A DNA stretch of 64,000 nt from assembly GCA_963576725.1 (NCBI GenBank), contig OY755240.1:11267878-11331877 (forward strand), read 5' to 3'. Numbering within the stretch: position 1 is the first letter of the stretch; the number at the start of each line of letters is the position of its first letter. The translations under genes and the position numbers were made by a program. The stretch is from Azorinus chamasolen. Taxonomy: Eukaryota; Mollusca; Bivalvia; Cardiida; Solecurtidae. The notes under the pieces were generated by a model. The model did not search any database. It had not been told where the DNA came from and was given only the letters and a program-made list of their open reading frames with translations. Shown in pieces: positions 4,066 through 51,497 of the stretch.

Positions 4066-4286
4066 TTTATTAGCATTTCCAGAAATAGTAGCGTCGATAA
4101 AAATGGCCTAAGCAATTAGAGCTGAACCTGATCAGACAACTTCTATGCAAATAAAAGGTATGAAATGACGTGTACATAAAGGATATGGTTAAACATACAC
4201 TATTGATATTGGTAACTGAGTATCAGACTTGAACACATAAATAAACTGTGTGGACACTGTTCAGTCATATGATCTATTTCCTAAAT

Positions 4287-4575
4287 GGAAAAGTAGTAAA
4301 GTCAAGCAGGCAAAGCCACATACAAGATGCAACCACCACCAAAACACCGATAGACAGCATGACACACATACACACACACAACCACACACCCAAACGCACA
4401 ATCACACTCGAGATGAACACAGAAAACACCAAAAGACACACAAGAACCAGAGACAAACATTCCACACATGAACAAAATCACAAGCACAAAGACGCAAGGC
4501 AAACAAAAGGAAGGGTGACAAGGAGAGTACCGCCTTGGCACGGTCAGTAGCAAAAACACCACTGGGGGTTTAATT
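4287..4575 (-). mobile_element. Naiad 3' end, type A UTR fragment
   Basis: It starts with 'gtagtaaagtcaagcaggca', the reverse complement of the type A tip at 41380-41400, continues through a CA-rich tract and ends at 'ggggtttaattgg'. A second type A tip abuts it directly. Open frames on both strands are low-complexity read-through. Confidence 0.85.
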
Positions 4576-4945
4576 GGAAACGTAGTAAAGTCAAGCAGGC
4601 AAAGCCACATGCAAGACGCAAACACCACCAAAACACCGATAGACAGCATGACACACACACACACACACACACAACCACACACCCAAACGCACACTCACAC
4701 GAAATGAACACAGAAAACACCAAAAGACACACAAGAACCAGGGACTAACGTTCCACACATGAACAAATCACAAGCACAAAGACGCAAGGCAAACAAAAGG
4801 AAGGGTGACAAAGAAAGTACCGCCTTGGCACGGTCAGTAGCAAAATCACCACTGGGGGTTTAAACCGGTTTACGGACGTCCTAACCTCACACTTCTCTCA
4901 AAGTCACCCTAGCTTTACAAATAGTGTAAATAAAGGTATCCCCGC
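4576..4945 (-). mobile_element. Naiad 3' end, type A UTR, second tandem copy
   Basis: A second copy of the same UTR abuts the first head-to-tail and extends further into the UTR ('aaccggtttacggacgtcct', 'ctcaaagtcaccctagc'). The direct junction of two 5'-truncated units in the same direction matches the tandem habit of PLE insertions. No recognised feature lies between here and the MITE at 5281. Confidence 0.85.
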
Positions 4946-14985: not shown

Positions 14986-15306
14986 TTTGTTTAAGACTTC
15001 TGAAGAGTCATAAACCAGAAGAGATTTATTCCAGAATGTTCATAAGTCATATCACAATAGAATTTATCTTCGTTAAACAGGAAGTAAAAAGTATAGATAA
15101 TTTATTAGTTGTACAAGACATAGAATTCGCAATGACGCGCTTTATATGGTTTTATGTAGTTTTGGTAACCAATACATTGTAGGAAGTTTATGTTGTTCGC
15201 ACTGTTTGACATGCTCTGAAACGATGGTCTTTTCGTCAGTACTAACTGAAAAATATGACTTTATATTAATAATTTCCTGCTTCAAGATGTCGATATAATG
15301 TAATCG

Positions 15307-15309
15307 TCA
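15307..15309 (-). other. Conserved in-frame TGA in an older Naiad copy
   Basis: The minus-strand codon order is ATT ATT ATT TGA CGA TTA CAT TAT ATC GAC, matching the TGA at 43543-43545 in the young copy. Confidence 0.8.
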
Positions 15310-15704
15310 AATAATAATGACATTATTCGATGCCTTATCAGCAGGAACAAAGACGTATTTTCAATGTAAATCCTGTGAACCCTTTCTAGGATGTCTAAAC
15401 AATTAGATGGAAGGTGTTCGTGTGAGTTATAAAATGAAATGCGTTTGTCATTTTATATCAAAAATGAGGTTTTTTTCCAATTTGAAAGAGCATGAAACTC
15501 AATATGTTCTCTACGACACTATCTAATACTAAAGTTTTGTAAATCCTCAGCAATCTGACTTTGACAAGAGTTAAAATCTACCAAGGATGGTTTTCTATAT
15601 TTTGGACCTTTATTAAGAAGAGATCATAGACGTTTACCTTTAATCATCTCGAAATTACAAGTAATCACAAGAACACATTTTCTCAATTTATTCAATAAAT
15701 ATGT

Positions 15705-15900
15705 TAAAAAGTTAATTTAAAAAGGAATATGATCCAATGATACTACAACATACTACATGTCTGGTTGTCAACCCTATTACATTTGGCAATCACGCGGCAC
15801 TCTTTTTATGGACGCCGACAGGAAAGGCTTAGTACTCTATGAAGACGCCCTCTGAACTCTGGAAACGGAAGGAGGATGTTGGATCTTTGTACTCGTTTTG
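15705..15900 (+). mobile_element. Naiad fragment: end of RT and start of type B UTR
   Basis: It reads 'ggaatatgatccaatgatac' and 'ctacatgtctggttgtcaac', the last RT codons, through 'gacaggaaaggcttagtact' just past the stop. Sequence from about 15900 to 16915 shows nothing recognisable. Confidence 0.75.
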
Positions 15901-29679: not shown

Positions 29680-30335
29680 TGTTTCTCACTTTGTTCATCA
29701 ACTATGTTAAAAAAAACATTAAAAAGGGATATGATCCTATAGTACTACAACATACTGCATGTTTGGTTGTCAACCCTTTTACAGTTGGCAATTACGCTGG
29801 CCTCTTTGCATGTACGCCGACAAGAAAGGTTTAGTACTCTATGAAGGCGACCTCTTCAGAAACGGAAGGAGGACGTCAGATATCTGTACTATTTCTTTTT
29901 TGTCGTACCCTTTATTACTTGTCTACAGTTACTCTGTTTGCAGCTCAATCATTGAGTACACTAGCGATAAGTGGATACAGTTTGTTCACTTAAATGTTTT
30001 CGTTATACATGCACTTTACCACTGCATATGCCATCGCGGTTGTTGTAGTTTAGTCGGAGAGGGGATACGTTTATTTACACTGTTTGTTTTTTAGGGTGGT
30101 GATGAAATAAATGTGAGGTTGGGCGCCCATAAGCCGATTTAATCCCCCAGTGATTTTGTCACTGACCGTTCTAAGGCGGTACTTCCATCTTCCCCCTATT
30201 GTATGTTTGTTTTGTCTTTGTGCGTCTCTTGATGTTTTTTATAGTTATGTATATTTGCTCTTTCCTTGTGTTGCTGTTCGGACGACTGTTTGTTCTATAT
30301 GTGGTGTTTCCTGCATGACTCATTTTTGTACTTTT
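29680..30335 (+). mobile_element. 5'-truncated Naiad: RT C-terminus plus type B 3' UTR
   Basis: About 50 RT codons remain (GYDPIVLQHTACLVVNPFTV, ending at the TAG at 29832-29834). The complete type B UTR of about 500 bases follows, to the tip 'gactcatttttgtactttt' at 30335. This copy and the one at 32938-33604 give the cleanest view of the type B 3' end. Confidence 0.85.
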
Positions 30336-32937: not shown

Positions 32938-33604
32938 CCCATTTTCTCACTTTGTTCATCAAATGTATAAAACAATTCATTAAAAAGGGATATGATCCTG
33001 TAGTACTACAACATACTGCATGTTTGGTTGTGAACCCTTTTACAGTTGGCTATCACGCTGGCCTCTTTGCATGTACGCCGACAAGAAAGGTTTAGTACTC
33101 TATGAAGGCGACCTCTTAAATCCAGAAATGGAAGGAGAACGTCAGATATCTGTACTATTTCATTTTTGTCGTACCCTTTATTACTTTTCTACAGTTACTC
33201 TGTTTGCAGCTCAATCATTGAGTACACTAGCGATAGGTAGATACAGTATGTTCACTTAAATGTTTTTTCGTTATACATGCACTTTACCACTGTATTTGCT
33301 GTCGCGGTTGTTGTAGATTAGTCGGAGAGGGGATACGTTTATTTACACTGTTTGTCTTTTAGGATGGGGATGGAATAAATGTGAGGTTGGGCGCCCATAA
33401 ACCGGTTTAACCCCCCAGTGACTTTTGTCACTGACAGTTCTAAGGCGGTACTTCCATCTTCCTCCTATTGTATGTTTGTTTTGTCTTTGTGCGTCTCTTG
33501 TTGTTTTTTCTACTTATGTACATTTGCTGTTTCCTTGTGTTGCTGTTCGGGCGAGTGTTTGTTCTGTATGTGGTGTTTCCTGCATGACTCATTTTTGTAC
33601 TTTT
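32938..33604 (+). mobile_element. 5'-truncated Naiad: RT C-terminus plus type B 3' UTR
   Basis: It begins 'cccattttctcactttgttc', codes the last RT residues (frameshifted) to the stop near 33093, and runs through the full type B UTR to the tip at 33604. It is closely similar to 29680-30335. Confidence 0.85.
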
Positions 33605-37396: not shown

Positions 37397-38305
37397 TACA
37401 AAAATGAGTCATGCATTAATCACCACATTACATAACAAACAGCCGCCCTAACAGCAACACAAGGAAACAGCAAATATACATAACTATAAAAACATAAAGA
37501 GACGCACAAAGACAAAACAAACATACAATAGGGGGAAGATGGAAGTACCGCCTTTGAACGGTCAGTGACAAAAGTCACGGGGGTTAAACCGGTTTTTAGG
37601 CGCCCAGCCTCACACTTATTCCATCCCCACCCTTCAAGACAAACAATGTAAATAAACGTATCCCCACTCAGACGAATCTACAACAACCACGATGGCAAAT
37701 ACAGTAATAAAGTGTATGTATAACGAAAACATTTAAGAGAACAAACTGTATCCACCTATCGCAAGTGTACTCAATGATTGAGCTGCAAACAGAGTAACTG
37801 TAGAAAAGTAATAAAGGGTACGACAAAAACGAACTAGTGCAGATATCCGACGTTCTCCTTCAATTTCTGGATTTAAGAGGTCGTCTTCATAGAGTGCTAA
37901 ACTTTTCTTGTCGGCGTACATGCAAAGAGGCCAGTGTGATTGCCAACTGTAAAAGGGTTGATAACCAAACATGCAGTATGTTGTAGTACTATAGGATCAT
38001 ATCCCTTTTTAATGATTGTTTTAACATATTTGATGAACAAAGTGAGAAAATGGGTATGTCCAATAATTTTACGAAGTTTGTAAATCACATCACCATAAAC
38101 TTCAGGATGTGAAATACCGTGTCGCAGAAGCGCCTTGATATTACGTTGGTACCTGCCAATAAGTGAGAGATTTCGATAGTAAAATTTAGAGAAAGTTTTT
38201 CTTAGTTTATGGTATCTATATCCTTGCTTAAGCAGCTTTTTATTTAAAATGAGATTTCGACTGTTAAAATCGTCAATAGATGAGCAAGCTCTAGCAAAAC
38301 GAATA
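37397..38305 (-). mobile_element. 5'-truncated Naiad, type B, tandem downstream unit
   Basis: Minus-strand unit from the type B tip at 37397 through the UTR and RT C-terminus to 'RFARACSSIDDFNSRN' near 38305, where it abuts the tip of the next unit (38306). In transcription direction this truncated copy follows a longer one, a head-to-tail PLE tandem. It has an open RT end segment but no upstream catalytic part. Confidence 0.85.
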
Positions 38306-39714
38306 AAAGTACAAAAATGAGTCATGCAGGAAACACCACATACAGAACAAACAGTCGCCCGAACAGCAACACAAGGAAACAGCAAATGTACATAACTATA
38401 AAAACAACAAGAGACGCACAAAGACAAAACAAACATGCAATAGGGGGAAGATGGAAGTACCGCCTTGGAACGGTCAGTGACAAAAGTCACTGGGGGGTTA
38501 AACCGGTTTATGGGCGCCCAACCTCACACTTATTCCATCCCCACCCTAAAAGACAAACAGTGTAAATAAACGTATCCCCTCTCCGACTAAACTACAGCAA
38601 CCACGATGGCAAATACAGTGGTAAAGTGCATGTATAACGAAAACATTTAAGTGAACAAACTGTATCCACCTATCGCTAGTGTACTCAATGATTGAGCTGC
38701 AAACAGAGTAACTGTAGAAAAGTAATAAGGGGTACGACAAAAACGAAATAGTACAGATATCCGACGTTCTCCTTCCATTTCTGGATTTAAGAGGTCGCCT
38801 TCATAGAGTACTAAACCTTTCTTGTCGGCGTACATGCAAAGAGGCCAGCGTGATTGCCAACTGTAAAAGGGTTGAGAACCGAACATGCAGTATGTTGTAG
38901 TACTACAGGATCATATCCCTTTTTAATGAATTTTTTAACATATTTGATGAACAAAGTGAGAAAATGGGTATGTCCAATAATTTTACGAAGTTTGTAAATC
39001 ACATCACTATAAAATTCCGGATGTGAAATACCGTGTCGCAGAAGCGCCTTGAGATTACATTGGTACTTGCCAATAAGCGAGAGATTTCGATAGTAAAATT
39101 TAGAGAAAGTTTTTCTTAGTATATGGTATCTATATCATTGCTTAAGCAGTTTCTCAGTTAAAATGAGATTTCGACTGTTGAGATATATAAACCTCATACG
39201 ATTGGGCACGGGGAACACCTCCGTCAAGATGAGGGTAATTTACAATAGAAAAAATAAAATCATCTCTTTTGTCGTATATTCTAGAATAAATCATTCCATT
39301 ATCAATTTTAAGGTCTAGATCAAGAAACGCTGCATAATTGTCGGAAGGGTTATCTTTCTTCAATTTGAGTTCTTTAGGATAAATTGTAGGAATGAGAGCA
39401 TCAAAGAGAGGGTTATCTAAGTTAAAAGTATCATCCAAATATCGAGAACTTTCATTGAAGGCTTTAATAACATCTTCTTGCGATTGTGGATTCAAACGAA
39501 ACATGAAATCTCTCTCATAGCAGTACAAAAACAAATCTGCGACTAGTGGTGCACAATTCGTACTCATATGAATACCAATTACCTGACGGTATATAGCATT
39601 ACCATAACGTACAATTATATTATCAAAAAGAAAGGTTAGTGATTCGCAAACTTCTGAGCAAGTCCAATTTGTGTAATATTTCATTTACTCATCAGTAAAG
39701 AAAGCTTTTTCGGC
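38306..39714 (-). mobile_element. Older Naiad, type B, 3' half (target of the young Naiad)
   Basis: Type B tip and UTR (38306-38815), RT C-terminus (38815-39170) and RT core (39154-39684). At 39714 it is cut by the young Naiad and continues at 45608 ('tacatgccaggaatgatgtt'); related copies at 7.7 and 14.38 kb show the undivided order. The right half extends, with another insertion, to 48133. Confidence 0.85.
39154..39684 (-). pseudogene. Naiad reverse transcriptase core fragment
   Basis: About 176 codons: CESLTFLFDNIIVRYGNA, YRQVIGIHMSTNCAPLVADL, YCYERDFMFRLNPQSQ, YLDDTFNLDN, AAFLDLDLKIDNGM and IVNYPHLDGGVPRAQSY. The canonical GIPMGTN box is changed to GIHMSTN, so even this open stretch is unlikely to encode an active polymerase. 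It belongs to the older minus-strand element interrupted by the young Naiad at 39715. Confidence 0.85.
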
Positions 39715-39843
39715 AATGAACAGTATAACATTTCTTTACTGAGCTCTTATGATTTCTCTACACTCTATACTACTCTACCTCACCATCTTATAAAGGATAG
39801 ACTTATTAAATTAATAGAAAAAACCTTTGCCAGAGAAAACAAA

Positions 39844-40809
39844 ATGTTCATTGCTTGTAATGTTCAACGTTCATTCTTTTCGAATTCAGAAGTTGAACAT
39901 TACACAATGTGGACTTGCCTTGATGTTTGTAGATCTCTTACCTTTCTTTTAGATAATATATTTGTGCGTTATGGAGATACCATATATCGTCAAGTTGTTG
40001 GTATACCCATGGGTACAAATTGTGCCCCTCTTGTTGCAGATTTGTTTTTGTATTGCTACGAGAGGGATTTTATGCTTAGCTTAAAACCTGATACACAGAC
40101 CGATATTGTTAATGCTTTTAATAAAACTTCAAGGTATTTAGACGATATTTTGAATTTAGATAATCCTTATTTTGATACTATGGTTTCTTCAATCTACCCA
40201 AAAGAACTGTCTTTAAATAAAGCTAATCAATCTGACATTAATGCTTCATTTCTAGATTTGAATCTTTCAATTACAAATGATAAAGTTTCGTCCAAAGTAT
40301 ACGATAAAAGAGAAGATTTTAATTTTAAAATTGTTAATTATCCTTTTCTAGATGGGGATGTGCCACGTTCTACATCTTATGGTGTTTATATTTCTCAACT
40401 TATTAGGTTTGCCCGAGCCTGTTCTTTGCTTGAAGATTTTAACAGACGTAATTTAGTTATAACTGATAAACTTCTTAAGCAAGGTTACAGATATCACAAA
40501 CTTCGGAAAACCTTTTCTAAATTTTATTATCGAAATTTACCTCTCATTAGTAAATATAATTGCAATCTACGGACGTTACTGCGACAAGGCATTTCTCAAC
40601 CAGAATTTTATGGGGATGTTATCTACAAACTTAGGAAAATTCGGGGTCATATCCATTTTCATGATTTGTTTATAAAACGCATTAAAAATTTTAAAAAGAA
40701 AGGTTATGATCCTATTATATTGCAACACACTGCATGTTTGGTTATCGACCCTTTTACAGTCGGTAGCTACGCTTCCCTCTTTGCTTGCGCGATGACAGGC
40801 CGAGGGTAG
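39844..40809 (+). pseudogene. Truncated Naiad RT (C-terminal two thirds), in the upstream unit
   Basis: The 321-codon frame is identical to the last 321 residues of the full-length product. It has GIPMGTNCAPLVADLFLYC, the catalytic YLDDILNLDN and the C-terminal thumb-like region. It lacks the first catalytic aspartate motif in frame after its ATG (that motif, DFSTLYTTLP, lies just upstream in the open frame at 39751-39780). There is no endonuclease or linker, so this is a structural by-product of the tandem insertion and not an independent gene. Confidence 0.9.
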
Positions 40810-41401
40810 TACTCTATGATGGTATACTCTTAAACTTGGATACAGGATGAGCTTACCAGACTCATGTATTATTTTTTCCCTGTCGTGCCCTTAACGGCTT
40901 ACCTGCAGGTGCTCTGACTTCAGCAAAGTCATTGAGTACATATTTGACGGATTGTCACAGTTATTATGCTATGTTTTACATGTTGTCCTGTGTTCACCGT
41001 CGTCTATGTTGTGGGTAAGTCCAGCGGGGATACCTTTATTTACAATATTTGTAAAGCTAGGGTGACTTTGAGAGAAGTGTGAGGTTAGGACGTCCGTAAA
41101 CCGGTTTAAACCCCCAGTTGTGTTTTTGCTGCTGACCGTGCCAAGGCGGTACTCTCTTTGTCACCCTTCCTTTTGTTTGCATTGCGTCTTTGTGCTTGTG
41201 GTTTGTTCATGTTGTGGAACGTTTGTCCCTGGTTCTTGTGTGTCTTTTGGTGTTTTCTGTGTTCATTTCGTGTGTGTGTGTGTGCGTGTGCGTTTGGGTG
41301 TGTGGTTGTGTGTGTGTGTGTGTCATGCTGTCTATCGGTGTTTTGGTAGTGGTTGCGTCTTGCATGTGGCTTTGCCTGCTTGACTTTACTACTTTTCCAT
41401 T
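40810..41401 (+). other. Naiad type A 3' UTR, first copy
   Basis: About 590 bases without coding sequence. It holds the conserved block 'ccggtttaaacccccag', 'gaccgtgccaaggcggtact', a TG-rich microsatellite (41270-41322) and the terminus 'gactttactacttttccat'. This UTR is the piece most often found alone elsewhere in the window. Confidence 0.85.
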
Positions 41402-41823
41402 TATAAGCACAATAGTGTTGTGTGTGCAGTGTGGCGGCGGTGAAACGTCTCCCCGTACATCCAATCAATATTGTTTTCTTCCTCTTGCAGGAATTGCTCT
41501 ACATTCAATGTGTTTCCTCATACCTTTACACCGTACTTTGCACTTCATGGTGGCTTCCGTACTCACCGACATATTGTGTGACTATTTTAATTTCCCTTTT
41601 AAGATTTGTGCCGTTTGCGTTTTCTCTAGTGCGACTTTACCTTATTTGTGTTTCTTCTTACTTTTTACCCATTCAATGTTTCACTATTCAATGTTTCATT
41701 CATATTCTTAGTCTTCTTTATTTTTGTCATAACCTCTGGTATGTTTTCTATTATTTTACACCACTTTTCGTTACATACGTATGTCGCTTTTTACAGAAGG
41801 GTGCTACAATTACTACACAAAAT
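41402..41823 (+). other. Naiad 5' leader
   Basis: The stretch between the upstream unit and the likely start codon is open in the coding frame from 41422. The hypothetical peptide is rich in hydrophobic and aromatic residues without PLE similarity, so I treat it as 5' UTR. Translation could in principle begin upstream of 41824. Confidence 0.55.
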
Positions 41824-44800
41824 ATGAATAGTCTCCCTAAACTCAAAATTAATAACTTAAACTTACACTCTGTGTCTTCCGTTCAGATTCCTCATAACCT
41901 GGCTAATTTCCAATCACTACAGCCGTCAGTTTGTATTAAACCTCTAAAATTGTCTTCTGCTTCATCTTTTCATGTTCCCTCTTCGGCTATTAGTAACATT
42001 TTTCATAATGGACCTAAAATCGTTTTGTCTCCTTTAAAGCAATCTATCATTCGTTATAGTAAAGTCCATCTAAATTCACATTATTTGAACAAAAGACATA
42101 GGGTGTATCCAATAATTACTAAGTGCAATAGTAAGAGGTGTATGTGTTGCAATTTCATTTCTACTAGATCAACAATTAAATCTCTTGTTAATGGTAGAGT
42201 GTTTAGTGTGAAGATTAATTCTGATTTAGACTGAAACTCATCTAATATTATATATGTTCTTACATGAAATGCGCCACGTTGTGGCATTCAATATGTAGGT
42301 CAGACAGGACGTTCTTTAAAAACTAGGTTTCGTGAACACAATTACCATTGCCGGATCAAAAAAGTACGCAATTTTCTTTACCAGCATTTTCGTCATACAG
42401 GACATTCTTTCAAATATGTTTCGGTTCAACCAGTAGAACAAATTTATTATGATTCTAAAACTACTGGTAGTTTAAAATCTAAAGCTCGTTTCATCACAGA
42501 GCTAGACTGGATAAAGAAATTACAAACACCTTTTCCTTTAGGCCTTAATGATAACATTTTCCAAAGCGGCAATATTTCTAAAGATCCAAGTATCGACATT
42601 TTCTCTATATTTTCTATTCGAAAACGTAAAAGTAGATCACATGGCAGACGTAGAAATGGTAATATTAAGCGTAAATTACGTCGTAATATGTCTATTCATG
42701 ATTTACATACTATTCTAAAACAAACTGGTAAACATTCTATGTTATCTTGTTTATCGTCTTTACCCTTTTCCTGTCTTAAGTCAATAGACGAAGAGGCTGA
42801 TAAAATCTATATGCGTACAGATCCGTTAATTAATACTGCCTCACTTATACAAAGTTACACACAGCATGTTCTTCGTCCACGTATTGATAAAGAATCTGAA
42901 CATAAAAGACATTTTCTGAAACTTCAGTTCCTAAATAAAGGTATCGATTTTATTGATATTCAAAGTATATTTCGTGATAAGAATGTAATCGATGCTATTC
43001 CCAAATATTTCATCAACTCTGAATCACCTATCATCTGTTATAAATATAATAAACCTATTAGAAATGTTATTTTGAACTACAATAAAATTGTCTCTGACTT
43101 AAATATTGATGTTAATACCCCTATTTCTTGAGATTGTAGCATTTCTAGCTTTTGCTATAAACCAGTTGGTCATGTCATTACTGGTAATTTTGATATCATT
43201 AAGGATAAACGTCTCAGGACCCTCCTAACTAAAGGACCTAAATATAGATTACCTTCCCTTATTGATTTTGACGCTTGTCGAACTCATATTGCGGAAGCTA
43301 TTCAAGAATTCTGCATCAAATGGTGTCGACGAGAACATGCTGATGTTAATGCCCTTTCGGATTGGAAGAAATGTATTTTCGATATTATTGATACACGAAT
43401 AACTTTTTACAAATCAAATAACCATCTTTTACCACCTCGACCTAGAGTTACATTTCGCTACTTGAAGAAAAACATTTCTAATTTTCATTCAGATTATGTT
43501 CTTGTTCCTGCTGACAAGGCATCAAACAATGTAATCATTATTTGAAGATTGTATTATGTTGATGTTTTAAAGAAGGAGCTAACTGATTCAAAAACTTATA
43601 TAACAGTTCAAACACCTGAAAAAGATATAGTCTCGGAACATGTAAAAATGTGCAATGATTTTAAGTCTGGTCCTAACATAAAACAACATAAACTTTCTAC
43701 TTTGTACTGGATTCCGAAACTACATAAAAACCCTTATAAGTCGCGTTTTATTGCCAACTCTAGCTGTTGTACCACTACTAAATTATCTATACTTTTGACG
43801 TCCTGTCTTACTACGATCAAAGAACATGTTAAACGCTACTGTGATAAAATATATGAAAATTCTGGTATTAATGTTTTTTGGTCCATAAAAAATTCAAATG
43901 ATGTTTTAACAAAACTTGAAAATGAACAGTATAACATTTCTTTACTGAGCTCTTATGATTTCTCTACACTCTATACTACTCTACCTCACCATCTTATAAA
44001 GGATAGACTTATTAAATTAATAGAAAAAACCTTTGCCAGAGAAAACAAAATGTTCATTGCTTGTAATGTTCAACGTTCATTCTTTTCGAATTCAGAAGTT
44101 GAACATTACACAATGTGGACTTGCCTTGATGTTTGTAGATCTCTTACCTTTCTTTTAGATAATATATTTGTGCGTTATGGAGATACCATATATCGTCAAG
44201 TTGTTGGTATACCCATGGGTACAAATTGTGCCCCTCTTGTTGCAGATTTGTTTTTGTATTGCTACGAGAGGGATTTTATGCTTAGCTTAAAACCTGATAC
44301 ACAGACCGATATTGTTAATGCTTTTAATAAAACTTCAAGGTATTTAGACGATATTTTGAATTTAGATAATCCTTATTTTGATACTATGGTTTCTTCAATC
44401 TACCCAAAAGAACTGTCTTTAAATAAAGCTAATCAATCTGACATTAATGCTTCATTTCTAGATTTGAATCTTTCAATTACAAATGATAAAGTTTCGTCCA
44501 AAGTATACGATAAAAGAGAAGATTTTAATTTTAAAATTGTTAATTATCCTTTTCTAGATGGGGATGTGCCACGTTCTACATCTTATGGTGTTTATATTTC
44601 TCAACTTATTAGGTTTGCCCGAGCCTGTTCTTTGCTTGAAGATTTTAACAGACGTAATTTAGTTATAACTGATAAACTTCTTAAGCAAGGTTACAGATAT
44701 CACAAACTTCGGAAAACCTTTTCTAAATTTTATTATCGAAATTTACCTCTCATTAGTAAATATAATTGCAATCTACGGACGTTACTGCGACAAGGCATTT

Positions 44801-45015
44801 CTCAACCAGAATTTTATGGGGATGTTATCTACAAACTTAGGAAAATTCGGGGTCATATCCATTTTCATGATTTGTTTATAAAACGCATTAAAAATTTTAA
44901 AAAGAAAGGTTATGATCCTATTATATTGCAACACACTGCATGTTTGGTTATCGACCCTTTTACAGTCGGTAGCTACGCTTCCCTCTTTGCTTGCGCGATG
45001 ACAGGCCGAGGGTAG
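41824..45015 (+). CDS. Naiad PLE polyprotein: GIY-YIG endonuclease + RT, with four in-frame UGA (probable selenocysteine)
   Basis: Self-mobilisation protein of a retroelement. From the ATG at 41824 the frame runs 1,063 codons to TAG at 45013-45015, with no TAA or TAG inside and four TGA at codons 137, 148, 436 and 574. Around codons 110-160 there is a Cys-rich stretch (KRCMCCNF) and the GIY-YIG core (NIIYVLT-U, then GIQYVGQTGRSLKTRF). A basic region follows (SIRKRKSRSHGRRRN, about 265-280). Near 436 is the linker with U-D-C in place of CxC, then YKPVGHVITGNF. RT motifs are DFSTLYTTLP (about 712), GIPMGTNCAP (795) and YLDD (840). Family knowledge: GIY-YIG nicks the target and the RT, related to telomerase, primes on it. 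The 41824 start was chosen as the first ATG close to recognisable sequence; an earlier start is possible. If UGA were read as stop, no piece would hold both enzymes. Confidence 0.9.
42232..42234 (+). other. In-frame TGA 1 (codon 137), probable Sec
   Basis: Context is D-L-D-U-N-S-S-N-I-I-Y. Related GIY-YIG PLE proteins, from memory, have a cysteine at this position just before the first strand of the domain. Confidence 0.75.
42265..42267 (+). other. In-frame TGA 2 (codon 148), probable Sec
   Basis: Context is I-I-Y-V-L-T-U-N-A-P-R-C-G. The usual residue after 'IYL(I/L)(T/S)' in this domain is cysteine, paired with the later C in 'CG'. Confidence 0.85.
43129..43131 (+). other. In-frame TGA 3 (codon 436), first position of the CxC motif
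   Basis: Context is N-T-P-I-S-U-D-C-S. The Naiad-defining CxC motif becomes UxC. The older copy has TGA at the same place (47501-47503). Confidence 0.88.
43543..43545 (+). other. In-frame TGA 4 (codon 574)
   Basis: Context is N-N-V-I-I-I-U-R-L-Y-Y-V. Relatives have a cysteine followed by a basic residue here, as I recall. TGA is also kept in copies at 47072-47074 and 15307-15309. Confidence 0.85.
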
Positions 45016-45607
45016 TACTCTATGATGGTATACTCTTAAACTTGGATACAGGATGAGCTTACCAGACTCATGTATTATTTTTTCCCTGTCGTGCCCTTAA
45101 CGGCTTACCTGCAGGTGCTCTGACTTCAGCAAAGTCATTGAGTACATATTTGACGGATTGTCACAGTTATTATGCTATGTTTTACATGTTGTCCTGTGTT
45201 CACCGTCGTCTATGTTGTGGGTAAGTCCAGCGGGGATACCTTTATTTACAATATTTGTAAAGCTAGGGTGACTTTGAGAGAAGTGTGAGGTTAGGACGTC
45301 CGTAAACCGGTTTAAACCCCCAGTTGTGTTTTTGCTGCTGACCGTGCCAAGGCGGTACTCTCTTTGTCACCCTTCCTTTTGTTTGCATTGCGTCTTTGTG
45401 CTTGTGGTTTGTTCATGTTGTGGAACGTTTGTCCCTGGTTCTTGTGTGTCTTTTGGTGTTTTCTGTGTTCATTTCGTGTGTGTGTGTGTGCGTGTGCGTT
45501 TGGGTGTGTGGTTGTGTGTGTGTGTGTGTCATGCTGTCTATCGGTGTTTTGGTAGTGGTTGCGTCTTGCATGTGGCTTTGCCTGCTTGACTTTACTACTT
45601 TTCCATT
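45016..45607 (+). other. Naiad type A 3' UTR, second copy
   Basis: Apparently identical to 40810-41401. It follows the TAG stop and ends at the junction with older Naiad sequence at 45608. The TG-rich tract lies at 45476-45529. A small perfect stem (tgactt / aagtca) sits at 45121-45137. Confidence 0.85.
45022..45056 (+). promoter_or_regulatory. Candidate SECIS-like element (weak)
   Basis: ATGA at 45022-45025, twelve bases, then AAA at 45038-45040, and GGATGA at 45051-45056, allow the non-Watson-Crick quartet order U.U, G.A, A.G. The helix between is short (GTAT / ATAC plus a C-G pair, with mismatches). The 5' ATGA and the AAA are conserved in both UTR types, but the 3' strand of the stem is not conserved in older copies. 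Other parts of the UTR could hold the real element. Confidence 0.25.
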
Positions 45608-46082
45608 ACATGCCAGGAATGATGTTTTCCCTGGCAAATACTTTCTGGATTAAGTTAGTAAATTTATCTTTAATTAAATTATGAGGAAGAGTTGCGTACA
45701 TAGTAAACAAATCGTACGTGCTTACAGTGGATGCAATATACCTTTTGTTCTTAAATTTGTTTAAGACTCTTGAATAGTTCTTAATAGACCAGAATATATT
45801 TATTCCAGAATTGTCATAAGTCTTATCACAGTAGAATTTTACATGTTCTTTTACCTTCGTTTTAACAAGATGTCAAAAGTATAGACAATTTAGTAGCTGT
45901 ACATGAGCTAGAATTTGCAATGAAACGCGCTTCATATGTTTTTTATGTAGTTTTGGTAACCAATACATTGTAGGAAGTTTATGTTGTGTAATTTTAATAT
46001 CGGTTCCACGTTGTTCACACTTTTTGACATGGTCTGAAACGATGGTCATTTCGTCAGTAGTAACTGAAATGTATGACTTTGC
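45608..46082 (-). mobile_element. Older Naiad, type B, RT N-terminal part
   Basis: Continuation of 38306-39714 after the young insertion. It shows 'ctggcaaatactttctggat', 'tgtttaagactcttgaatag' and 'agaatttgcaatgaaacgcg', matching 14385-15240 in order. It is cut at 46083 by the hairpin-repeat array and resumes near 47029. Confidence 0.8.
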
Positions 46083-47028
46083 GTGAGTAGTGGTGCAGTT
46101 TTAATTACTACTCATGAACAGACTCAATAAAACCGAGTCTGCAATTTTCTCATTTTGCATTTTTACTTTTGCATTCGCAGGATCACCTATTTCAGAATAT
46201 ATTTACTTCACAACAGCAGGTGTTAAGTGCTTGTGTGCGGCTGTAAAAAGTCGCCCCGTCCTTCATTCTCAGTGTTGTTACATTTTCTGATCCTTCGGGA
46301 TCATTAGTTTTGAAAATTGAATACTGCTTAAGCCGGGGCAAGGGGCGTGATTAGTGTTGCAGTTTTAATTACTACTCATGAACAGACTCAATAATTTCTG
46401 AAGGGTGGTGATCCCCCGAAAGCAAAAATTGCAACACAAAAAGAGAAAATTGCAGACTCGGTTTTATTGGGTCTGTTCAGGAGCAGTAATTGAAAGTGCA
46501 ACACTGCTCACGCCCCCTAGCACCGGCTTAAGCGGTATTCAATTTTCAGAACAAGAAGTACTGAAATTCATGATCTCGAAGGATCAGAAGGTATACCAAC
46601 ACTGAGAATGAATTACGGGCGACGTTTTACGGCCGCCAAACAAGCACTTAACGCCTGCTGTTGTGAAAATTATAAATTCTGAAGGGTGGTGATCCCCCGA
46701 AAGCAAAAATTGCAACACAAAAAGAGAAAATTGCAGACTCGGTTTTATTGAGTCTGTTCATGAGCAGTAATTGAAAGTGCAACACTGATCACGCCCCCTA
46801 GCACCGGCTTAAGCGTTATTCAATTTTCAGAACAAGAAGTACTGAAATTCATGATCTCGAAGGATCAGAAGGTATAACACTGAGAATGAAGTACGGGCGA
46901 CGTATTACGGCCGCCACACAAGCACTTAACACCTGCTGTTGTGAAGATTATAAAAACCGAGTCTGCAATTTTCTCCTTTTGCATTTTTACTTTTGCTTTC
47001 GAAGGATCACCCATTTTCAGAATATGGG
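46083..47028. repeat. CAGACTC-hairpin repeat array in both orientations, inserted in Naiad
   Basis: A + unit at 46083-46395, two - units at 46396-46675 and 46676-46945, and a + partial at 46946-47028. Each full unit is about 280 bases. The units in opposite orientation meet mid-unit, producing long inverted repeats. Flanking Naiad coding sequence ('gtatgacttt' left, 'attaataatttcctgcttca' right) is continuous across it. Confidence 0.85.
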
Positions 47029-47071
47029 TATTAATAATTTCCTGCTTCAAGACATCTATATAATGTAATCG

Positions 47072-47074
47072 TCA
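47072..47074 (-). other. Conserved TGA, equivalent of 43543
   Basis: The minus-strand reading is ACT GTG ATT ATT ATT TGA CGA TTA CAT TAT, the same context as in the young copy. Confidence 0.85.
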
Positions 47075-47500
47075 AATAATAATCACAGTATTCGATGCCT
47101 TATTAGCAGGAACATAAACGTATTTTGAATGGAAATCCTGTAAACCCTCTTTAAGATGTCTAAAATAAATTCTAGGTTTAGGTGGAAGAAGGTGTTTATT
47201 AGAGCTATAAAAAGAAATGCGTTTGTCTATTATATCAAAAATTAGTGTTTTTTTTTCAATTAGAAAGAGCATTAGACTCAACATGTTCTCTTCGACACCA
47301 TTTGATACTAAACTTTTGTAAAGCCTCTGCAATCTGAACTCGACAAGAGTTAAAATCTATCAAGAATCTATCAAGGATAATATTCTATATTTGGAACCTT
47401 TATTCAAAAGATATCGTAGACGTTTATCTTTAATTATCTCAAAATTACCAGTAATAACATAACCAGCCGGAGAATAGCAAAACTTTGAAGTGGCGCAATC

Positions 47501-47503
47501 TCA
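47501..47503 (-). other. Conserved TGA at the CxC motif, equivalent of 43129
   Basis: The minus-strand reading is CCT GAT AAT TGA GAT TGC, i.e. U-D-C, the same as the young copy. Confidence 0.88.
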
Positions 47504-48169
47504 ATTATCAGGAATGTTATCATTGATATTAAGGTCGGTCATAATTTTATTATAGTTGAAAATTGTATTTCTGATGGGTTTGTTATATTTGTAGCAGATG
47601 ATAGGTGGTTCTGTATTTTTAAAGTTTTTAGGGATAGTGTCAATCCCATTTTTGTCTCTAAAACTACTTTGGAGGCCAATAAAACCAATACCTTTATGAA
47701 TAAAAGAATTTTTTAAGAAGAATCTTTGGTGTTCAGATAATGTATTAATGTGCGGTCTGAGAACATGTAGAGTAAAGCTTTGTACCAAACTATCCGTTCC
47801 TAGGAGAGGATCTGATCTAATAACAATTTTATCGGCTTGCTCTTCAATTTCTTTATTTTAATGAAGATATAGATAAGGAGGAAAGTCTAGAAAGCAAGAC
47901 ATGTTTACCAGAAATAAGACCTAAAGTATGTAGATCAAGAATAGTCATTTTCAAACGAGAATTTTCTTTAATATTACCATTTTTACGAATGCCATTTGAT
48001 CGAGATTTGAGTTTTCTTATAGAAAAAATATCTATATCAGGATCTTTAGAAATATCTCCAGTCTGGTAAATATTATCATCCAATCCTAAAGGAAAAGATA
48101 GCATAAGCCTACTAATTACTTGCACGTGCATTTATAAATGTTGCAGTAACTTGTATCAGGTACCCGTTT

Positions 48170-48425
48170 GGTAAATAAGAGTGAAAAAGTAGTCAGGGAG
48201 GAAAGGTCGCACACAAGACGCAAAACAGTGGCACACACACACGCATGCGAGCACACACTCACGTTCACACACATTTATGTATGTGTCTGTGTGCGTCTCG
48301 GTGTGTGTCGGTGTGTGTATGTCTGTCTGTGTGTTTCGTGTGTGTTTTTGTGTATGTGTCGCATGACTATTATCGATGGAATGGTGATGATTGCGTCTTG
48401 TGTACTTGCATTGACTGGTTTTTCA
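48170..48425. repeat. CA/TG-rich junction of two Naiad type A-like tips in inverse orientation
   Basis: The left side reads as a minus-strand tip ('agtgaaaaagtagtcaggga', then CA-rich). The right side is TG-rich and ends with 'gatgattgcgtcttgtgtac', like a + tip. Together they form a loose inverted repeat. The region 48426-49535 shows nothing recognisable. Confidence 0.5.
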
Positions 48426-50554: not shown

Positions 50555-51497
50555 AACACAGATATCATAAAATTCGGAAAGCTTTTTCAAAATTCTATTA
50601 TCGATATACCCCTCATTAGTAAATATAACTGCAATTTACGGACGTTACTGCAACATGGTATTTCTCATCCAACTTTCTATTGTGATGTTATCTACAAACT
50701 TAGGAAAATTCATGGTCATATCCATTTTCACGATTTGTTTATTAAACGCATTAAAACTTTTAGGAAGCAAGGTTATGACCCTATTATATTGCAACACAAT
50801 GCATGTTTGGTTATCGACCCCTTTACAGTCGGTAGCTATGTTTTCCTCTTTGCTTGCACGATGACAGGCAGAGGGTAGTACTCTATGATGGTATACTCTT
50901 AAACCCAGAAATGGGATGAGCTTACCAGACTCATGTATTACCTTCTCTGTCGCGCCCTTAACTGCTTCCCTGCAGTTGCTCTGTCTTCAGCAAAGTCATT
51001 GAGTACATATTTGACGGACTTTCACAGTTGTTATGCTATGTTTTACATTTTGTACTGTGATTACTGTCTTCTATGCTGTGGGGAAGTCCGACGGGGATAC
51101 CTTTATTTACAATGTTTGTTTAGCTAGGGTGACTTTGAGATAAGTGTGAGGTTAGGACGTCCGTAAACCGGTTTAAACCCCCAGTGGTGATTTTGCTACT
51201 GACCGTGCCAAGGCGGTTCTCTCTTTGTCACCCTTACTTTTGTTTGTCTTGTGTCTTTGTGCTTGTGTTTTGTTCATGTTTGTCTCTGGTGCTCGTGTGT
51301 TTCTTGGTGTTTTCTGTGTTCTGTGTGGTTGTGTGTGTGTGACATGCTGTCTATTGATGTGTTGGTGGTGATTGCGTCTTGTGTGCGACTTTCTGTTTGT
51401 GTGTGTGGGTATAAATTGCTATGTTTTCTGTAGGTGTTTTGGTGATGGTGGCGTTTTGTGTGTGACTTTTCCTGCTTGACTTTACTACGTTTTCAAC
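50555..51497 (+). mobile_element. 5'-truncated Naiad, type A: RT C-terminus and 3' UTR
   Basis: It begins in the RT C-terminal region ('attctattatcgatataccc'), with the stop near 50878. The complete type A UTR follows to 'gactttactacgttttc' at about 51497. After the stop it has 'tactctatgatggtatactc', conserved with the young copy. A TG-rich tract is present but shorter. Confidence 0.85.

Follow-up and report, generated by a model that had tools for sequence, protein, structure and literature searches.

We report that a Penelope-like retrotransposon of the Naiad type from the bivalve Azorinus chamasolen very probably (at about 0.95) encodes a selenoprotein in which four in-frame UGA codons would be decoded as selenocysteine (Sec). 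The element, here called unit A, appears to have inserted recently into a 64,000-nucleotide stretch of the genome (the window; GenBank assembly GCA_963576725.1, contig OY755240.1, positions 11,267,878 to 11,331,877 of the forward strand), whose numbering is used throughout. Directly observed are a long frame crossed by TGA alone, family Cys columns at all four TGA, the same TGA codons in young copies elsewhere in the genome, a covarying Sec insertion sequence (SECIS) at the end of the frame, database relatives that end exactly at these codons, and constraint downstream of them; we infer that the UGA codons are decoded as Sec, that the enzyme is active and that the Cys/Sec sites act as metal ligands. 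The principal features are listed below, and column counts here and later refer to rows with a residue at that position in an alignment of 120 database relatives.

41402..45607, forward strand: full-length Naiad element, unit A, recent as judged from near-identical copies elsewhere in the genome
41824..45015, forward strand: single open reading frame (ORF) of 1,063 codons with four in-frame TGA and a TAG stop
42232..42234, forward strand: TGA codon 137, putatively read as Sec; column Cys in 49/49
42247..42441, forward strand: GIY-YIG endonuclease core, residues 142-206, with Y144, Y157, R168, H172 and E205 conserved
42265..42267, forward strand: TGA codon 148, putatively read as Sec; column Cys in 49/49; first Cys of the endonuclease Cys/Cys/His/His set
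43129..43137, forward strand: CxC linker written UxC, TGA codon 436 followed by codons 437-438 with C438 in sense; Cys in 96/106 at 436 and in 102/105 at 438
43495..44895, forward strand: reverse transcriptase (RT) with a telomerase-like fold, D712 and YLDD at 840-843
43543..43545, forward strand: TGA codon 574, putatively read as Sec, at a strand end near the start of the RT; column Cys in 109/119
45008..45082, forward strand: SECIS hairpin fold; Rfam SECIS_1 match at 45014-45076, AUGA at 45022-45025, AAA at 45038-45040, GA at 45065-45066

Unit A is about 4.2 kb long and holds this single ORF. An initial annotation had described a frame of 1,064 codons lacking TAA and TAG and containing four TGA; its composition stands, and its size becomes 1,063 codons followed by the TAG stop. 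Each of the remaining five frames over the same stretch carries 54 to 146 stops, and no frameshift was seen inside the frame of unit A. The frame is also open for about 400 bases 5' of the first ATG (41416-41823), where it has no in-frame ATG. At 41481-41490 the 5' untranslated region (UTR) has a pyrimidine tract followed by CAG that resembles a 3' splice site; Penelope-like elements keep introns.

The domain order identifies unit A as a Naiad-type Penelope-like retrotransposon, with a GIY-YIG endonuclease N-terminal to a telomerase-related RT and a CxC linker between them. Structure comparison of a predicted model matched the RT fold to telomerase, and D712 and the YLDD stretch are what we take to be its named motifs. 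The endonuclease model matched I-TevI on a second look, Foldseek alone having returned no match at an E-value of 0.001 or better, and a sequence profile search of the PDB found no match. Naiads are defined by a Cys/Cys/His/His set in the endonuclease, a CxC between endonuclease and RT, and the lack of a hammerhead ribozyme. Among the 47 rows that cover codons 137 and 148, columns C148, C153, H172 and H188 are conserved in 47 and H194 in 45; H172, H188 and H194 are candidates for the two His of the set. No hammerhead family was listed in the window, whether at the Rfam gathering score or at E-values up to 10, and ARAGORN found no tRNA there.

The four TGA codons fall where the family has Cys. 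The initial annotation had placed one of them at the first position of the CxC motif and another at the IYVLT-C site of the endonuclease, which holds for codons 436 and 148, and its expectation that all four would align with Cys columns is borne out by the counts given above. Where column 574 is not Cys it holds Trp (eight rows), Glu (one) or Val (one); the non-Cys rows at 436 comprise four Trp, four Phe and one each of Gln and Thr. The rows with Trp at 436 or 574 are close relatives (48-62% identity) and look as a translation with TGA as Trp would print them. All four TGA lie among 13 conserved Cys columns, and none falls among the 21 further Cys that the frame contains. Four independent single-base nonsense mutations would all hit these 13 columns with a probability of 2-7 in 10 million (the calculation omits a 14th column, 1057, where Cys stands in 20/40), and all four would be TGA with a probability of 0.005-0.006. 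These odds, like the lack of TAA, TAG and frameshifts, agree with the earlier argument that random decay would look different.

The same design is common to the young copies in this genome. A search of the 1.72-Gb assembly (137 contigs) gave 48,754 loose protein candidates, of which 43, ranked by protein score, were scored; this choice describes the young copies and not how often copies are broken. All 43 are full length at 99-100% identity with four TGA each, and 42 have no other stop, the remaining one carrying an extra TAA. Had most young copies carried sense codons at these sites, the initial annotation would have failed; in the 30 copies fetched (unit A and 29 others) TGA occupies all four sites without exception, and at the nine other conserved Cys columns 270/270 cells hold TGT or TGC and none TGA. 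The terminal codon is TAG in 29 of these and CAG in one. At the DNA level, copies in the same genome match most of unit A at 98.9-99.9%. Changes among the genome copies comprise 56 distinct silent and 31 distinct amino-acid differences, against a neutral silent share of 0.213, a count that is biased towards constraint by the protein-score ranking and is not used as proof.

Database relatives, known as proteins only, break off at the very codons in question. A search with residues 90-436 yielded 410 relatives, and among the best 120, which were mapped, residue 435 is the exact end of 67 and residue 573 that of 39 (106/120); the 39 that reach 573 have Cys at 436. The remaining 14 end once each at 312, 364, 408, 417, 420, 432, 433, 437, 442, 449, 459, 484, 529 and 577, ends that we read as decay, contig ends or misalignment. 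With residues 1-136 as the query, 13 relatives were found, nine ending exactly at 136 and three exactly at 147, each of the three with Cys at 137. Over both searches, the end of the ORF coincides with one of the four TGA codons in 118 of the 133 database ORFs mapped. The search accepts proteins of 0.55-1.75 times the query length, and so ORFs with Cys at every site are under-sampled; the exactness of the ends is not explained by this filter. The thirteenth N-terminal relative, P0254, ends at 105, which would imply a stop at the position of conserved Cys 106; this single case is possibly a fifth Sec site, or else a contig end or decay. Four relatives that end exactly at 435 (P0181, P0183, P0187 and P0199) represent clusters of 539 to 1,412 member sequences, and such Naiads may reach very high copy number in some genomes.

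Older copies in the window extend the pattern to greater divergence and show constraint beyond the TGA codons:

45606..48116, reverse strand: 5' piece of an older Naiad copy, copy B (residues ~230-741), with TGA at 436 and 574
38416..39714, reverse strand: 3' piece of copy B (from residue ~743) with its own SECIS at 38750-38812, read as split off by the insertion of unit A
15151..15399, reverse strand: third Naiad fragment, with TGA at 574

These copies cover the Sec sites three times and have TGA each time (436 and 574 in copy B, 574 in the third fragment). Across all 32 high-scoring segment pairs (HSPs) the other conserved Cys columns are covered 15 times, with 13 TGT/TGC, one TTG, one GTT and no TGA; in HSPs at 55% identity or more they are TGT/TGC in 9/9. 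Among the 2,831 codons of these HSPs that lie outside the conserved Cys columns, 36 are stops (15 TAA, 14 TGA and 7 TAG). Units A and B were compared over 781 codons in five pooled blocks, which gave a nonsynonymous rate (dN) of 0.27, a synonymous rate (dS) of about 1.8, near saturation, and a dN/dS of 0.15; two of the three blocks after codon 574 were computable, at 0.16 and 0.14. Single HSPs between unit A and other, mostly decayed copies gave dN/dS of 0.10 to 0.66 where computable. The low A/B ratio, together with the TGA codons kept in both lineages, indicates that the RT stayed under selection downstream of TGA. Purifying selection downstream of UGA, in-frame UGA where homologues have Cys, and a 3' element with an AUGA:GA core and apical A's, scoring below the Rfam gathering threshold, are marks of a eukaryotic selenoprotein gene, and unit A has these three.

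The third of these marks lies where the ORF ends. In the predicted fold of unit A, a long hairpin (-19.6 kcal/mol, z -2.5), AUGA, AAA and GA occupy the places expected of a SECIS, in line with the core features described in a passage of PMC8704476 (AUGA, A's and GA). The hairpin starts in the stop codon, with helix I including the TAG, and the recoding signal is thus predicted to be wrapped round the stop. Six of seven copies have the TAG in helix I at the corresponding aligned position, and the seventh has a 2-base deletion there. A SECIS 3' of the ORF had been anticipated, and one is present; the range proposed for the search, 45016-45607, would have cut its first helix. Unit A carries a one-base variant (SECIS_1 score 20.8 bits, E 3) of a form shared by 27 of the 30 genome copies, which folds at -21.9 kcal/mol and scores 23.2 bits in one of them, L008. 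A scan of the whole window at E-values up to 10 listed four SECIS_1 matches, which score 23.9 to 26.0 bits with E 0.9 to 3.5 and all lie at 3' ends of Naiad fragments; at the gathering score Rfam lists nothing in the window. Besides those of units A and B, the following were located:

40808..40870, forward strand: identical SECIS in the upstream tandem copy of unit A
33094..33156, forward strand: SECIS of another Naiad fragment, 25.7 bits
50877..50939, forward strand: SECIS of another Naiad fragment, 23.9 bits; 50871-50945 folds at -29.0 kcal/mol, z -4.2
15831..15893, forward strand: SECIS of another Naiad fragment, 24.2 bits

When eight SECIS copies were aligned, 84.8% of cells were paired, versus 34-44% in slid versions, and six pairs had changed on both sides; the covariation score and the share of cells paired exceed those of all 500 shuffles.

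Three other explanations of the four TGA codons deserve weighing. Unit A could be a dead element in which the TGA codons are ordinary nonsense mutations: many copies in the window have decayed and carry scattered stops of all three kinds, TGA is one step from TGT and TGC, and copying in trans could in principle multiply a dead master together with its stops. Yet decay would have had to strike conserved Cys columns four times against the odds given above, to spare 1,063 codons any frameshift, TAA or TAG, and to leave the same stops in every scored young copy, nearly all of them otherwise unbroken, in copy B at near-saturated dS and at the ends of most database ORFs, as well as a covarying SECIS. 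We regard this explanation as barely credible, and indeed already refuted, because exact stops are shared by diverged copies and the sequence downstream is constrained. A host code in which TGA is simply Cys, as is known in Euplotes, or Trp, would need no selenium and would also put TGA on Cys columns; it is hardly any more probable. Under such a code TGA should not be confined to four of the 13 conserved Cys columns and absent from the other 21 Cys, from the nine other columns of the young copies and from those of the older ones; nor would it account for C438, two codons from TGA 436, staying Cys in 43 of the 45 mapped relatives that have a residue at this position, or for covarying SECIS at Naiad ends. 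A reading as Trp is unlikely given the Cys columns and the 6 TGG in the frame.

Very improbable too, and the least so of the three, is that UGA is a leaky stop or a deliberate truncation that yields short pieces, with the 3' hairpin serving retrotransposition and not Sec. Structures at the 3' end do serve RT recruitment in other retroelements, and Sec decoding in unit A is argued from sequence comparison; leaky stops, however, require neither Cys columns nor repeated swaps with Cys, and AUGA, A's and GA, as described for SECIS, are all retained in the hairpin. Several observations nonetheless weigh against decoding as Sec. Every SECIS match falls below the Rfam gathering score of 35 (E-values 0.5 to 3.5), and that of unit A is the weakest, absent from the whole-window list at E 10. 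The number of doubly changed pairs was reached by 42 of 500 shuffles, the further pair types (14) are fewer than in the shuffles (mean 17.3), and the eight SECIS copies fall mostly into two subfamilies, which the double changes mostly separate, so that few events may underlie them. Three of nine folded regions (55354, 8702 and 37870) gave no hairpin: the AUGA cores of the first two are changed, and the third, first cut in mid-hairpin, is weak when refolded as 37826-37902 (z 0.67). The copy at 29822 lacks the apical A's. As the database relatives are available as proteins only, TGA is the presumed identity of their stops, and decoding four UGA in one mRNA is costly.

On the Sec reading, a single mRNA would be read from 41824, the SECIS at its stop codon would recruit the SECIS-binding protein, eEFSec and Sec-tRNA of the host, and ribosomes would decode the four UGA as Sec to give a 1,063-residue endonuclease-RT. 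Of the four conserved Cys that Sec would then replace, two belong to the endonuclease, one belongs to the CxC linker and one lies close to where the RT starts. This protein would nick its target and copy its own RNA, leaving tandem, 5'-truncated arrangements. The most likely origin of the Sec sites is a near-neutral swap: given a SECIS and efficient decoding of UGA, a change of TGC or TGT to TGA would be cheap and revertible, with the side effect that RT output would depend on selenium.

Exchange at the CxC site can be followed on a tree of 111 relatives built from residues 199-435, with column 436 itself excluded and 13 rows dropped for cover or unclear state. At 436, 69 rows have an exact stop or W and 42 have Cys, the stop state being deduced from the ends of protein ORFs. 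The tree needs 19 changes between the two states (18-19 in bootstraps), 13 of them forced by well-supported branches; another tree, of 123 rows with long-branched outgroups, likewise needs 19, of which 10 are forced. Exceptions to the steadiness of C438 are rare, and one of the 120 relatives, P0235, ends at 437. It is conceivable, if on balance somewhat doubtful, that Sec and Cys are readily exchangeable in the Naiad clade, with at least 13 UGA/Cys switches at 436 among the 111 relatives beside a steady C438 and a SECIS built around the stop, and that Naiads amount to a natural repeated experiment on Sec/Cys exchange in which transposition rate is tied to host selenium.

The surroundings of unit A bear on its age and mode of insertion:

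39715..41401, forward strand: 5'-truncated tandem copy of unit A (codons 700-1063, stop, SECIS and 3' UTR) in a pseudo-long-terminal-repeat (pseudo-LTR) arrangement

Its bases 39715-41399 are identical to 43921-45605 in 1,685 of 1,685 positions, with two further bases matched by eye. As the tandem piece and the 3' end of unit A have not diverged at all, the insertion of unit A is young. A tandem piece of more than 1 kb also adjoins copies L009, L010, L011, L018, L022, L024 and L026, whose flanks were examined to about 1 kb, and in two pairs, L010/L011 and L025/L026, full-length four-TGA copies stand head to tail about 4.2 kb apart as full tandems. Head-to-tail tandems with a 5'-truncated first copy are the pseudo-LTRs of the Penelope literature, as a passage of PMC11167929 has it. 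The pair formed by unit A and its truncated copy reads as having landed within the older, opposite-strand copy B, whose 5' end, at 48116, is some 160 bases away from a TG repeat (48278-48360). Naiads have an insertion-in-fingers domain and an insertion bias towards microsatellites. Nested and truncated Naiad fragments crowd both strands of the window (43 BLAST pieces, a count that includes the tandem pair and overlapping TG-repeat matches), and 4282-4864 is a tandem of the Naiad 3' UTR tail.

A scan of viral contigs found no relative, and a scan of genome contigs found four loci from bacterial metagenome-assembled genomes (MAGs), none with TGA at the four sites. The sites are covered only in L001, where all four are TGT/TGC, and in L002, where 574 is Cys. 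L001 (QIJL01000205.1), a 4.6-kb contig in a Flavobacteriales MAG, holds a long Cys-only Naiad matched over residues 98-969 and is probably eukaryotic DNA binned into a bacterial genome. Naiad pieces also occur in MAGs of two mussel-type symbionts and a Lucinoma symbiont (L002, L003, L004 and P0219, the last named from a clam symbiont MAG), which are probably host DNA in symbiont assemblies.

If unit A is what it appears to be, its sole enzyme needs several Sec, which would tie the copying of the element to the selenium and the Sec machinery of its host, and high-copy selenoprotein transposons might compete for Sec-tRNA with the selenoproteins of the host. Genes of this kind are broken up by standard annotation, and public databases hold their relatives as fragments whose ends fall exactly at Sec codons. 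Whether Sec is adaptive or neutral has long been asked in selenium biology, and repeated exchange with Cys at one site would allow the question to be put directly.

Several known systems bracket unit A. Penelope elements proper have a C-terminal endonuclease and are not known to use Sec, and in this they differ from it. The tandem pseudo-LTR organization is shared, for example by an Anolis element presented in PMC11167929. Mollusc selenoprotein P (SELENOP), a secreted host protein and not a mobile element, offers a parallel to the proposed decoding of many UGA in one mRNA: a passage of PMC8230778 gives 46 Sec for oysters and 132 for one bivalve species. Sec swaps would be tolerated because hosts of such elements, as the SELENOP example suggests, decode UGA well. 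Cys-only Naiads (P0015, P0020, P0023 and L001) share the domain order and the Cys columns of unit A but have Cys in place of UGA, at about 31-42% identity. Our literature search returned no paper joining Penelope-like elements with selenoprotein and Naiad, or with selenocysteine, the 2021 Naiad paper having been beyond its reach. Multi-Sec Naiad elements of clams and spiders were reportedly described in that year by Craig, Yushenova, Rodriguez and Arkhipova (Mol Biol Evol 38:5005-20), so that the initial annotation was right to propose a multi-Sec element and rated its novelty too high, the class being already published. Like unit A, those elements combine an N-terminal GIY-YIG, a CxC linker, a C-terminal RT, a pseudo-LTR tandem and several in-frame UGA with the lack of a hammerhead, a likeness at the level of general class features. 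With strong comparative evidence behind it, the assignment of unit A as a new member of the multi-Sec Naiads is well supported.

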